A stretch of 64,000 nt of DNA from the NCBI GenBank assembly GCA_023664185.1, contig JAMPGA010000002.1, positions 20,480 to 84,479 of the forward strand. Reading direction: 5' to 3'. Position 1 is the stretch's first letter. Each line of letters starts with the position of its first letter. The notes under the pieces are model-generated. The model did not search any database. It saw only the letters and a list, made by a program, of their open reading frames with translations, and was not told the DNA's origin. The DNA comes from Muribaculaceae bacterium (GTDB lineage Bacteria; Bacteroidota; Bacteroidia; Bacteroidales; Muribaculaceae). Positions 14,468 to 18,265 of this stretch are shown here, piece after piece. The translations under genes and the position numbers were made by a program.

Positions 14468-14499
14468 TTTGCAAAAACAGATTAAAGATTGTAAATTTG
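14468..14499 (+). promoter_or_regulatory. Promoter of the metYX-hom transcript
   Basis: TTTG at 14468-14471 and TAAATTTG at 14492-14499 are separated by 20 bases, a full match to the Bacteroidetes -33/-7 promoter. Transcription would begin near 14505, leaving about 50 bases before the leader peptide start and about 220 before metY. Confidence 0.8.
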
Positions 14500-14553
14500 C
14501 AGCGTCAAAGCATCAAAAGACACATTTTAAAACCCAACCCCCGAATCAAAAAA

Positions 14554-14652
14554 ATGGCACAATCGTCTGCATACACCCTTATCACCCAGCCGGCCACGAC
14601 GGGGCGAATGTACATGTGCATGATGATGAACTGCCAGCTATGCCGGGGGTGA
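14554..14652 (+). CDS. Methionine/cysteine-rich leader peptide of the met operon
   Basis: A 32-codon frame between the promoter and metY. Residues 19-30 read MYMCMMMNCQLC: five Met codons in seven positions and three Cys codons. The stop codon (14650-14652) lies 30 bases before an intrinsic terminator, and the downstream genes make methionine from homoserine and sulfide. This is the arrangement of an amino-acid attenuator: ribosomes short of Met-tRNA would stall in the Met run. A metal-binding micropeptide is the main alternative, but it would not explain the terminator position. No other start codon gives a better peptide. Confidence 0.75.
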   Translation: MAQSSAYTLITQPATTGRMYMCMMMNCQLCRG

Positions 14653-14712
14653 TTGTTCACGCATATATCAACTCAACCATATAAACCGGCCTCATCACGA
14701 TGCCGGTTTTTT
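14589..14712 (+). promoter_or_regulatory. Methionine attenuator with four mutually complementary segments
   Basis: Short complementary segments lie at 14589-14594 (GCCGGC), 14642-14646 (GCCGG), 14686-14690 (CCGGC) and 14702-14706 (GCCGG). They allow 1:2, 2:3 and 3:4 pairing, the classical ribosome-controlled scheme. Segment 2 is in the last leader codons, so a ribosome reaching the stop codon would cover it and free 3:4, the terminator. The 2:3 pairing seen by eye is only about five pairs, so folding must confirm it. Confidence 0.6.
14683..14712 (+). terminator. Intrinsic terminator of the met attenuator
   Basis: AAACCGGC (14683-14690) and GCCGGTTT (14702-14709) form an 8 bp stem with an 11-base loop, followed by a T tract (14707-14712 and beyond). 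It stands between a complete promoter and metY, so full-length transcription needs it to be bypassed. Confidence 0.85.
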
Positions 14713-14727
14713 ATTTTCAATAAGAAC

Positions 14728-16017
14728 ATGGACTATAGCAAACTCCGTTTTGAGACACGCCAGATACACGCAGGCCTCAACCATCACGAGCCCACCGGAG
14801 CAAGGGGTGTGGCCATATACCCCACAGCGGCCTACCGGTTTAAGGATTGCGAATATGCAGCAAACCTCTTTGAGCTCTCTGAGCCGGGCAATATATACAC
14901 CCGCCTGCAGAACCCCACCACGTCGGCCTACGAGGAGCGTGTGGCCGCTCTCTATGGGGGTGTGGGGGCTCTGGCTGTGTCGTCGGGGATGGCGGCAATA
15001 CATCTTACAGTTACAGCTCTGGCAGCCGAGGGCGACAATATCGTGGCTTCTCCCCTGCTCTACGGCGGCACTTATAATCTGTTTCGCCACACTTTGCGCC
15101 GACTGGGAATAGAGGTGCGCATAGCCTCTTCGGACAATCCTGCCGACTTTGCCGCGCTGATCGACGATCGTACACGGGGAGTGTTTGCCGAAAGCATGGG
15201 CAACCCCACCTGCGGGGTGGCCGATATCGAAGGACTGGCCCAGGTGGCTCATGCAGCCGGTGTGCCACTGATCATCGACAATACTTTCGGGGCATGCGGA
15301 TATCTGTGCAACCCCTTTGACTGGGGTGCGGACATCATCACCGACAGCGCCACAAAGTGGATCAACGGTCACGGCACAGCCATGGGTGGTATCATAGTGG
15401 ACAGCGGGCGCTTTGACTGGCGCAACGGCAAGTTTCCGGGCATCGACGGCCCCTCCGATGGCTATCACGGTCTGAACCTGGCTGAAGCCTTCGGGCCGGC
15501 GGCTTTCATAGTGAAGTGTAGGGTGGACGGACTGAGAGACTTCGGATCGTGCTCCTCGGCTTTCGACAGCTATCTGATGATGTATGGGCTGGAGACTCTG
15601 TCGCTGCGTGTAAGGCATGTGGTGGAGTCGACACGCCGCCTGGCCGAATGGCTCCGCTCCAACCCGGCCGTCAAGCATGTTAGCTATGTAGGGTTCTCCG
15701 ACCATCCCAGCCATGAGAGAGCCGTGAAATATTTCAAACCGGCAGCCTCGGGCGTGCTCAACGTTGAGCTTAAAGGCACTCTGGAGACCACGGTGAAATT
15801 TGTGGAGGCACTCCGCCTGTTTGCCCACATGACCATGATAGGCGACTCCATCTCTGTGGTGACTCATCCGGCATCTACCACCCACAAACAGCTGAGCCAG
15901 GCCGACCTGGCAGCCGCAGGGGTCACCCCCACCCTGCTGCGCATATCCCCGGGACTCGAAAATGTGGATGATCTGATCGACGATTTTGCACAGGCTATAG
16001 CACAGACTGGATTATGA
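14728..16017 (+). CDS. metY: O-acetylhomoserine sulfhydrylase (aminocarboxypropyltransferase)
   Basis: A 429-residue PLP enzyme of the Cys/Met metabolism family that joins O-acetylhomoserine and sulfide to homocysteine. The motif DSATKWINGHG carries the PLP lysine (about K210), and TRQIHAG, YPTAAYRF and TRLQNPT are family landmarks. MDYSKLRFETRQ gives the usual start; a longer in-frame start at 14653 would run through the terminator. It is the first gene of the metY-metX-hom operon, whose third step begins from homoserine. The four-base overlap with metX (ATGA) indicates coupling. Confidence 0.95.
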   Translation: MDYSKLRFETRQIHAGLNHHEPTGARGVAIYPTAAYRFKDCEYAANLFELSEPGNIYTRLQNPTTSAYEERVAALYGGVGALAVSSGMAAIHLTVTALAAEGDNIVASPLLYGGTYNLFRHTLRRLGIEVRIASSDNPADFAALIDDRTRGVFAESMGNPTCGVADIEGLAQVAHAAGVPLIIDNTFGACGYLCNPFDWGADIITDSATKWINGHGTAMGGIIVDSGRFDWRNGKFPGIDGPSDGYHGLNLAEAFGPAAFIVKCRVDGLRDFGSCSSAFDSYLMMYGLETLSLRVRHVVESTRRLAEWLRSNPAVKHVSYVGFSDHPSHERAVKYFKPAASGVLNVELKGTLETTVKFVEALRLFAHMTMIGDSISVVTHPASTTHKQLSQADLAAAGVTPTLLRISPGLENVDDLIDDFAQAIAQTGL

Positions 16018-17030
16018 GTAAATTGCTACACTATCTCGAACCCTTCCATCTGGAACTGGGGGGAGTGATCAACGGCCTGACCATAGCCTTCGACACCTAT
16101 GGCACTCTAAACGCCGACCGCAGCAACTGTGTCTGGGTGTGCCATGCACTTACGGCCAACAGCGACGTGGCCGACTGGTGGCCTCACACGGTGGAGAAGG
16201 GCAAATTCCTGGATCCGGAGGAAAACTTCATCGTGTGTGCCAACATCCTGGGCTCGCACTACGGCACTACGGGGCCACTGTCGGAAAATCCCGTCACAGG
16301 CTCCCCCTATTATACCGACTTTCCCCGCCTCACCATCCGCGATATGGCCAGAGCTCATATCCTGCTGGCCGATACCTTGGGTCTGACTCGCATCAAGGCG
16401 CTCGTGGGGAGCTCGGTGGGTGGATTTCAGGCTCTGGAATGGGCGGTGGAAGAGCCTTGGCGCTTTGAGAAACTGGTGCTCATAGCCACCGATGCCAAGG
16501 CCTCGGCCTGGACTATAGCCCTCGACGAAACCCAGCGCATGGCCATCAAGGCCGATCCAACTTACGGCCGAAGATCTCCCACAGCAGGCATGAACGGCAT
16601 GGCCGCAGCCCGAGCCATCGGTCTGCTCTCTTACCGCGGCCCCGAGGGCTACAACGCCACGCAGACCGATCCGGAGTGTCTGCCGGCCGATGCCACACGC
16701 CGCGCCACTACCTATCAGCAACACCAGGGCGACAAACTCTGTCAGCGCTACAATGCTTACTCCTACGTCACCATCCTGGATGCCTTCGACACCCACGACG
16801 TAGGGCGCGGCCGCGGAGGTGTGGCCAAGGCTCTCAGACGGCTGCAAATGCCGGTGATGGTAGTGGGCATCTCCACAGATATTGTTTTTACGGTGCCTGA
16901 GATGCATCGGCTCTGCTCCATGATGCCAAACGGAGTATACAAAGAGATCGATTCCCGCTTCGGCCACGACGGATTCCTTGTAGAACACGAGCAGCTCAAC
17001 GACATCATCAAACCATTTATGCAACAATGA
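16014..17030 (+). CDS. metX: Homoserine O-acetyltransferase
   Basis: A 338-residue alpha/beta-hydrolase-fold enzyme that activates homoserine with an acyl-CoA. The nucleophile elbow GSSVGGFQALEW gives S134; the acid is probably D289 in ISTDIVF and the base H318 in GHDGFL. YDTYGTLN and NILGSHYGTTGP are typical MetX segments. Some enzymes annotated as MetX use succinyl-CoA, which the sequence alone cannot settle, but a neighbouring O-acetylhomoserine sulfhydrylase favours acetyl. It overlaps metY and hom by four bases each. Confidence 0.93.
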   Translation: MSKLLHYLEPFHLELGGVINGLTIAFDTYGTLNADRSNCVWVCHALTANSDVADWWPHTVEKGKFLDPEENFIVCANILGSHYGTTGPLSENPVTGSPYYTDFPRLTIRDMARAHILLADTLGLTRIKALVGSSVGGFQALEWAVEEPWRFEKLVLIATDAKASAWTIALDETQRMAIKADPTYGRRSPTAGMNGMAAARAIGLLSYRGPEGYNATQTDPECLPADATRRATTYQQHQGDKLCQRYNAYSYVTILDAFDTHDVGRGRGGVAKALRRLQMPVMVVGISTDIVFTVPEMHRLCSMMPNGVYKEIDSRFGHDGFLVEHEQLNDIIKPFMQQ

Positions 17031-18265
17031 AAGACGGAAAGATTCAGATAGGCTTGTTCGGGCTCGGCACTGTCGGGCAGGGGATATTCCAGGTTATAGC
17101 CAAGGCGCGCAATGCCCATGCCAAGATACGTCGCATCTGTGTGCGCGATGTCTCGAAGCCTCGCGGGGTGCAGGTTGACCCCGCGCTACTCACCACCGAC
17201 TCCGCGGCTCTGCTCGACGATCCGGAGATTGACCTTATAGTAGAGGTGATCGACGATGCCGATGCTTCCTACGACATCGTGACGGCTGCCCTGCGCAAGG
17301 GCATCCCGGTGGTGAGCGGCAATAAAGCCATGATAGCGCGCCATCTGCCCGAGCTTATAGAGCTGCAGCGACGCCACAACACCGCCCTGCTCTACGATGC
17401 CTCATCGTGTGGGTCGATACCGGTGATAAGAAATCTGGAGGAATACTACGACAACGACCTGCTGCTCGAGGTGAAGGGCATACTCAACGGATCGTCAAAC
17501 TATATACTGTCGAGCGTGTTCGACCACAACGAGCCTTACCACTCTGCGCTGGCCAAGGCACAGCAGGAGGGGTTTGCCGAGAGCGACCCGACATTTGACA
17601 TAGAAGGGTTTGACTCGCTGTTTAAACTCGTTATAATCACCGTCCATGCCCTGGGGGTCTATGTTCCCCCGGCCGACATTTTCACCTATGGCATATCGTC
17701 GATACATGAGTCGGACATACGTTATGCCCGCGAAAAGAGGGTGAAGATTAAGCTTGTGGCTCAGGTGGTGAAAGTGACCGACGAGGAGTTCACCATGTTT
17801 GTGATGCCGGAGTTTGTGGATCGCACCAAATATATCTATAGCGTCGACGACGAGTATAACGGCGTGGTGATACGCGGCGAGTGCTACGACCGCCAGTTCA
17901 TGTTTGGCAAGGGAGCCGGCTCGCTCCCCACGGCCTCGTCGATACTCAGCGACATTATGGCGCGCCGCCACGGCTACCGATATGAATACAAGAAGATGAG
18001 CTATGAGGGTCTGCCCCGCTACACCACCGACATTAATCTGCGCGTCTATTTCCGCTATCTCACCACCGATATACCCTCACTGCTCCCGCTGGGTAAGATA
18101 CATGAGCAATACAGGTCGGAACAGTCAAACTACATCATAGCCGACATTCTTCTGACCGACCTCATCAACCACCGCCACGTGCTCAGCGCAACAGACGTGT
18201 TTGTATGTAACATCCCCATGTTCTTCCGCGACGCCGACACCCTCAAGCCGATTAAGGGGAGTTGA
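17027..18265 (+). CDS. hom: Homoserine dehydrogenase
   Basis: A 412-residue enzyme that reduces aspartate semialdehyde to homoserine. The N-terminal dinucleotide fold starts with GLFGLGTVGQG, and the catalytic homoserine domain (about 130-320) contains the expected GILNGSSNYILS and FDIEGFDSLFK. The C-terminal 90 residues could be an ACT-like regulatory domain (YTTDINLRVYFRY). A separate hom in a methionine operon suggests the pathway makes its own homoserine under methionine control, with an aspartokinase-fused enzyme expected elsewhere. Confidence 0.92.
   Translation: MKDGKIQIGLFGLGTVGQGIFQVIAKARNAHAKIRRICVRDVSKPRGVQVDPALLTTDSAALLDDPEIDLIVEVIDDADASYDIVTAALRKGIPVVSGNKAMIARHLPELIELQRRHNTALLYDASSCGSIPVIRNLEEYYDNDLLLEVKGILNGSSNYILSSVFDHNEPYHSALAKAQQEGFAESDPTFDIEGFDSLFKLVIITVHALGVYVPPADIFTYGISSIHESDIRYAREKRVKIKLVAQVVKVTDEEFTMFVMPEFVDRTKYIYSVDDEYNGVVIRGECYDRQFMFGKGAGSLPTASSILSDIMARRHGYRYEYKKMSYEGLPRYTTDINLRVYFRYLTTDIPSLLPLGKIHEQYRSEQSNYIIADILLTDLINHRHVLSATDVFVCNIPMFFRDADTLKPIKGS

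Follow-up and report, generated by a model that had tools for sequence, protein, structure and literature searches.

The metY-metX-hom operon of a Muribaculaceae bacterium is preceded by an element that is, with high probability, a ribosome-mediated transcription attenuator for methionine. Judged from sequence comparison, the cell very probably reads its methionine supply by how far a ribosome advances in a short leader, since dozens of relatives keep the Met codons together with two mutually exclusive hairpins. The element combines a leader ORF, a run of Met codons, a fixed spacing and two covarying, mutually exclusive helices; it is linked to methionine genes in separate operons and recurs in other classes of Bacteroidota. 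We infer that ribosomes stall at the Met codons for want of charged tRNA and that read-through into the operon changes as a consequence. The locus was studied in a 64,000-nucleotide stretch of DNA (the window) from a genome of 2.12 Mb in 15 contigs; relatives named Muribaculaceae below are of the same family.

The features of the locus are collected in Table 1. A first-pass annotation, made from the sequence alone, had proposed the promoter, the short ORF with five Met and three Cys codons, and the terminator before metY, and our direct reading agrees with its coordinates and counts. From the position of the promoter, the RNA is expected to start at about 14505. The Met codons of the leader run lie at 14608, 14614, 14620, 14623 and 14626, and its Cys codons at 14617, 14632 and 14641; on both strands of the 64-kb window this leader is the sole ORF of 8-62 codons with at least five Met in 14 codons, the start excluded. 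The terminator, situated between the leader ORF and metY, consists of the stem-loop AAACCGGCCTCATCACGATGCCGGTTT (14683-14709) and a U tract (14710-14717). A simple terminator scan, whose criteria restrict the length of the loop, did not list it; it is evident from RNAfold and the alignment. The RNA of the stretch 14505-14716 folds better than its shuffles (z -2.4). Among the operon genes, the best matches of metX are MetX models throughout, despite an NCBIfam score below the cut-off.

Table 1. Features of the leader region and the operon that it precedes (positions within the window)
Feature	Position	Strand	Sequence and evidence
Promoter, Bacteroidota type	-33 TTTG 14468-14471; -7 14492-14499	+	-7 TAAATTTG, 20-nt gap; read directly
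Leader peptide ORF, 32 codons	14554..14652 (ATG 14554, TGA ends 14652)	+	MAQSSAYTLITQPATTGRMYMCMMMNCQLCRG; read directly
Putative regulatory codon run, 5 Met + 3 Cys	14608..14643	+	MYMCMMMNCQLC; final Met at codon -8, counted from the stop
Segment 2, antiterminator 5' side (final three sense codons of the leader)	14641..14649	+	TGCCGGGGG; pairs with segment 3; covariation
Segment 3, common to antiterminator and terminator	14684..14691	+	AACCGGCC; alignment, covariation
Intrinsic terminator, segments 3 + 4	14683..14717	+	AAACCGGC..GCCGGTTT, U tract TTTATTTT; RNAfold, alignment
Possible protector ACCCCCG	14537..14543	+	Predicted to pair with CGGGGGT 14644-14650 without ribosome (minimum-energy fold)
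metY, O-acetylhomoserine sulfhydrylase, first controlled gene	14728..16017	+	NCBIfam TIGR01326, 553 bits (cut-off 495)
metX, homoserine O-acetyltransferase-like	16014..17030	+	Best model TIGR01392, 334 bits (under cut-off 500)
hom, homoserine dehydrogenase	17027..18265	+	NF004976, 309 bits (cut-off 205); PF00742

A related-locus search with MetY yielded 80 loci, 66 of which were used as Bacteroidota, and the aligned set comprised the window and 26 relatives from Muribaculaceae-like and Alistipes-labelled assemblies. All 27 aligned sequences upstream of metY carry a short ORF whose final part contains a Met run, for example MTRTLSTYNMSAIMSSGMMMVMCMCSRASRV and MDFTGSNIAFRDHVMTANDMMMQMCMRQPSSRG. 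The N-terminal part of the leader is unrelated between most loci, while the Met run and the part downstream of it are kept. Inside the 27 leaders 174 ATGs lie in the leader frame versus 8 out of it (5 and 3 in the other two frames), Met accounts for 30% of the last 20 codons, and it occupies codon -10 from the stop in every leader and codon -8 in 26 of the 27. Cys is frequent at codons -9 and -7 (12 leaders each), and the number and order of the Met codons differ among relatives. In 25 of the 27 leaders a promoter-like TAnnTTTG occurs no more than 180 nt from the leader ATG, versus 4.7% of control pieces.

The first-pass annotation had named lack of conservation of the Met run in relatives as one outcome that would refute its reading. 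This outcome did not occur: the run is kept in all 27 aligned leaders and in all 30 verified matches to the covariance model described below, and the letters around it change. No Met-run leader was found at 13 metY homologues that lie outside Bacteroidota or are distant from it (Cyanobacteria, Acidimicrobiia and others). A simple scan did not score a leader at 31 of the 66 Bacteroidota metY loci, a figure that counts truncated loci as well as a few that are borderline or of type b (see below); with about half of the loci unscored, the element is not universal.

Across the leaders, segment 2 coincides with the closing codons of the ORF (NNN AGC CGG GTG), and segments 3 and 4 with the 5' and 3' arms of the terminator. 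With segment 2 anchored on the stop codon and segment 3 on its CCGG, 86.2% of the cells of the antiterminator 2:3 are paired, four pairs have changed on both sides, and the covariation score was matched by none of 500 shuffles; when the partner was slid by 1-3 columns, pairing was at most 51%. For the terminator 3:4, 95.2% of the cells are paired, seven pairs have changed on both sides and the score was again matched by 0 of 500 shuffles, in a set of 25 distinct sequences in which segment 4 was placed by folding, biasing the count towards pairing. Because the shuffles do not preserve relatedness, the both-sides changes and the slid controls outweigh the shuffle counts. The conserved antiterminator core of the window has only five G-C pairs, and no conserved structure other than the terminator and antiterminator was seen in the leaders.

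These results modify one element of the first-pass annotation, which had drawn four alternately pairing GCCGG/CCGGC segments (14589-14595, 14641-14649, 14684-14690 and 14702-14706 in the window). Segments 2, 3 and 4 are conserved; segment 1, GCCGGCC at 14589, has no conserved counterpart, and the upstream partner predicted for segment 2 in the window is not this segment but ACCCCCG at 14537-14543. The predicted core of this protector (CCCCC 14538-14542 with GGGGG) shows no conservation in relatives. Elsewhere in the window leader, the terminator loop TCATCA (14691-14698) and the TGATGA within the Met codons (14620-14628) are complementary, so that an untranslated leader could extend the antiterminator. 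In the spacer between the leader stop and the terminator (14653-14682), Muribaculaceae-like leaders have a loosely conserved stretch resembling GTCACGCATATA, and leaders labelled Alistipes have short local hairpins; a pause site or additional pairing with Met codons is conceivable here.

The two fixed Met codons (-10 and -8), together with some recurring C-terminal residues (R at -5 in 19 of 26 leaders, S or N at -6 in 21 of 26), could also point to an arrest peptide, in which the nascent Met-rich chain and a small molecule (S-adenosylmethionine or methionine), rather than uncharged tRNA, would halt the ribosome; the RNA architecture would then look identical. However, relatives differ in how many Met codons they have and in what order, and Met runs in other classes have unrelated C termini. 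Moreover, all 26 aligned leaders that share this layout use CGG for Arg at codon -2, and the codon for Ser at -3 is invariably AGC, which the pairing of segment 2 explains without recourse to the peptide. Arrest of this kind is, in our estimate, improbable.

Attenuation by ribosome position was modelled by folding the leaders with the ribosome-covered part held unpaired, the A-site-to-edge distance of 13 nt being an assumption. For a transcript ending in the terminator loop, placing the last Met in the A site gave an antiterminator probability above 0.5 in 25 of 27 leaders, and placing the first Met of the run there did so in 23; a ribosome at the stop codon left no leader above 0.5. The probabilities for the window in these three states were 1.00, 0.48 and 0.00. 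With this assumed distance, a ribosome decoding the last Met would have its edge 3 nt short of the segment 2 core in 24 of the 27 leaders, and with codon -8 in the A site it would leave the antiterminator segment only just uncovered. In the complete leader at equilibrium the terminator wins in nearly all cases even with a stalled ribosome (24 of 27 at the last Met); full-leader equilibrium folding fails to separate the states, whereas the co-transcriptional version separates them. The switch must therefore be kinetic, the antiterminator forming before segment 4 exists; for classical attenuators, such precedence of the antiterminator over the synthesis of segment 4 is accepted. Without a ribosome, the antiterminator is predicted to be favoured in 18 of the 27 leaders, the window not being one of them; for L036 and L050 the prediction is ON. 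In the window, an untranslated leader would not form the antiterminator, because segment 2 is paired upstream.

The proposed mechanism would run as follows. RNA polymerase would transcribe the leader, with a ribosome translating the short ORF behind it. When Met-tRNA is plentiful, the ribosome would reach the stop codon and cover segment 2, so that the terminator 3:4 forms and transcription stops before metY. When Met-tRNA, and perhaps also Cys-tRNA, is scarce, the ribosome would halt within the Met run, just short of segment 2, and segment 2 could then pair with the emerging segment 3; the terminator would come too late, and metY-metX-hom would be transcribed.

The covariance model R1 has a single strong match in the genome of the window (E 1e-16, the next at 1e-3), and its use on 297 genomes of the family gave 30 verified leaders. 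These precede metY, or metX where metY is absent at the locus (L140 and L147). One genome possesses two copies, of which L152 is located before metX-hom, and L153 before an operon of a Cys/Met PLP enzyme (sulfhydrylase), patB, metF and metH, the PatB being a PatB-type C-S lyase. The proposal of a leader-peptide attenuator in the first-pass annotation thus gains support from the kept Met run, from the covarying antiterminator/terminator pair, and from the methionine-pathway genes downstream in every verified case. R1 matches below about 40 bits inspected in other families and orders are plain terminators with similar letters; the exceptions at such scores are L162 (another class) and L151 (the same family), both with Met runs.

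SAM riboswitches often control operons of such kind, and a metabolite riboswitch (for SAM or a methionine-related compound) beside an incidental ORF would be in keeping with that. Against this, the SAM-I riboswitch (RF00162) was found neither in the window nor in any of 119 family genomes, while control genomes gave matches, and an Rfam scan of the window and its relatives yielded no family at the gathering score, T-box included. The best sub-threshold match, the threonine operon leader (Thr_leader, 23 bits versus a cut-off of 55), is itself a leader-peptide attenuator. Given also that the only structure seen conserved is the terminator/antiterminator and that ATGs are almost strictly in frame, we regard a riboswitch as extremely improbable.

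Met-run leaders built from other letters occur elsewhere in Bacteroidota. The leader of L162, MSKMKTTFENIILKNNRSANLQYFFCIMMAMMCMSDLMREGII, has at its end GTGAAGGGA, whose complement CCCTTCAC lies in the L162 terminator, and the CCGG system is entirely gone. In a phylum-wide sample, 14 of 109 metY regions have a Met-run ORF within 400 nt upstream, compared with none in antisense and about 0.15 in shuffles. A nearby terminator and a segment 2:3 pairing in different letters are present at L185, L186, L187, L190, L230, L273, L278 and L281, of which L230, L278, L281 (MMQMCMMMCCC type) and also L273 use yet other pairing letters; at L199 and L202 the 2:3 pairing is weak. At distances of up to 400 nt upstream of metY, L185, L186, L187 and L190 carry two tandem Met-run leaders, and each leader has a terminator and a complementary antiterminator segment of its own. 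Mixed Met/Cys runs (CMCMMM, CMCMCMM, MCCMYMCKM) were noticed at L256, L260 and L264, with the nearest good terminator about 250 nt further downstream.

A second leader layout, type b, was observed in loci labelled Alistipes or Prevotella (L064, L065, L069, L081, L082, L085-L090, L092 and L094), at about 120-300 nt upstream of metY. Its Met-rich ORF ends in ..MRMCR* over an almost invariant ATGCGAATGTGCCGNTAGGCAC, the stop codon lying inside the hairpin of this sequence; a second hairpin follows, with neither a clear U-tract terminator nor an Rfam match. In L090 the stop codon is lost yet the RNA letters are kept, which suggests that the type-b RNA itself may matter. The type-b model R2 had zero matches in 295 evenly drawn Bacteroidales genomes, so that type b is either restricted or missed by the search filters. 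A type-b pattern search of 295 Bacteroidales genomes returned one match (L115), which by eye resembles a palindrome of the REP type next to a gene for a REP-associated transposase and is therefore taken as unrelated. Its hairpin GTGCCGTTAGGCAC, in an unrelated Bacteroidales genome, agrees with the type-b hairpin in all 14 letters, whether by coincidence or through a link in origin.

The type-b loci, which keep a Met-rich ORF without a clear U-tract terminator, would suit a model in which leader translation acts on metY through Rho access or translational coupling instead of an intrinsic terminator. In the window and the type-a leaders, by contrast, the terminator is conserved and covarying, and segment 2 is complementary to it, which makes such control very improbable there; for these leaders, attenuation at the intrinsic terminator is the preferred reading.

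The codon for methionine also starts nearly every protein, and a methionine attenuator must therefore cope with slowed initiation of its own leader. Since a shortage of methionine limits initiator fMet-tRNA, the leader may be translated poorly just when it is needed, and because initiation is lowered as well, the default state of the untranslated leader matters. As a tentative extension, which we consider possible though somewhat doubtful, there may be a Bacteroidota-wide class of Met (and Met/Cys) attenuators, sometimes paired in series, that has repeatedly arisen or been rebuilt with unrelated letters and is ON when untranslated in many relatives, thereby solving the initiator-tRNA problem. 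If this is true, the ON state of untranslated leaders (with no conserved protector hairpin) would allow read-through even under severe lack of methionine, which blocks both initiation and elongation. A methionine attenuator would offer a clean natural test of attenuator behaviour without initiation. The element is also a candidate for the control of methionine synthesis in gut Bacteroidales where the SAM-I riboswitch was not found, and the window locus is a bench-ready site at which transcription attenuation in Bacteroidota could be demonstrated.

Operons for methionine are commonly under SAM riboswitches, and leader-peptide attenuation is well known for other amino acids, in the trp, his, leu, ilv, thr and phe operons. 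Like the attenuators of the latter operons (Proteobacteria and others), the element described here has a short ORF rich in codons for the product, a terminator before the first gene, and an antiterminator that shares sequence with the end of the ORF and is incompatible with the terminator; it differs in its AUG codon, its occurrence in Bacteroidota, the lack of conservation of the 1:2 protector, and its sub-threshold Rfam score. Like SAM (S-box) riboswitches and Met T-boxes, it would act on the methionine pathway through early termination of transcription, but in those systems the RNA directly senses SAM or uncharged tRNA, and no such RNA was matched here. Most likely, the element belongs to a known mechanism class, the ribosome-mediated attenuator, with a methionine specificity for which no earlier description was found in the literature searched, most subscription journals falling outside that scope.

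Leader-peptide systems had, to the knowledge of the authors of a 2010 study reporting a case from Firmicutes, previously been shown only in Proteobacteria and Actinobacteria (PMC2965389). Leader-like short ORFs in Bacteroides thetaiotaomicron have been mentioned in general terms (PMC7366714). In Actinobacteria, methionine operons were described as having no conserved RNA element, and cys operons as having leaders with Cys runs (PMC1262725). These Cys-rich leaders of Mycobacterium and others resemble the Met leaders in that both are short and contain codons for sulfur amino acids, Cys being found in the Met leaders too; they are described as lacking obvious terminators, whereas the Met leaders have a conserved terminator and Met as the main codon. 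Similarly, the candidate uORFC-8-2 of cysS (PMC8632094) has sulfur amino acid codons in a short leader, the main codon here being Met. A close setting is that of the amino-acid operons of Flavobacterium psychrophilum, for which signs of leader-peptide attenuation have been reported (PMC9723704; the text consulted makes no mention of methionine): they belong to the same phylum, and the same class of mechanism was proposed for them from structured 5' regions.
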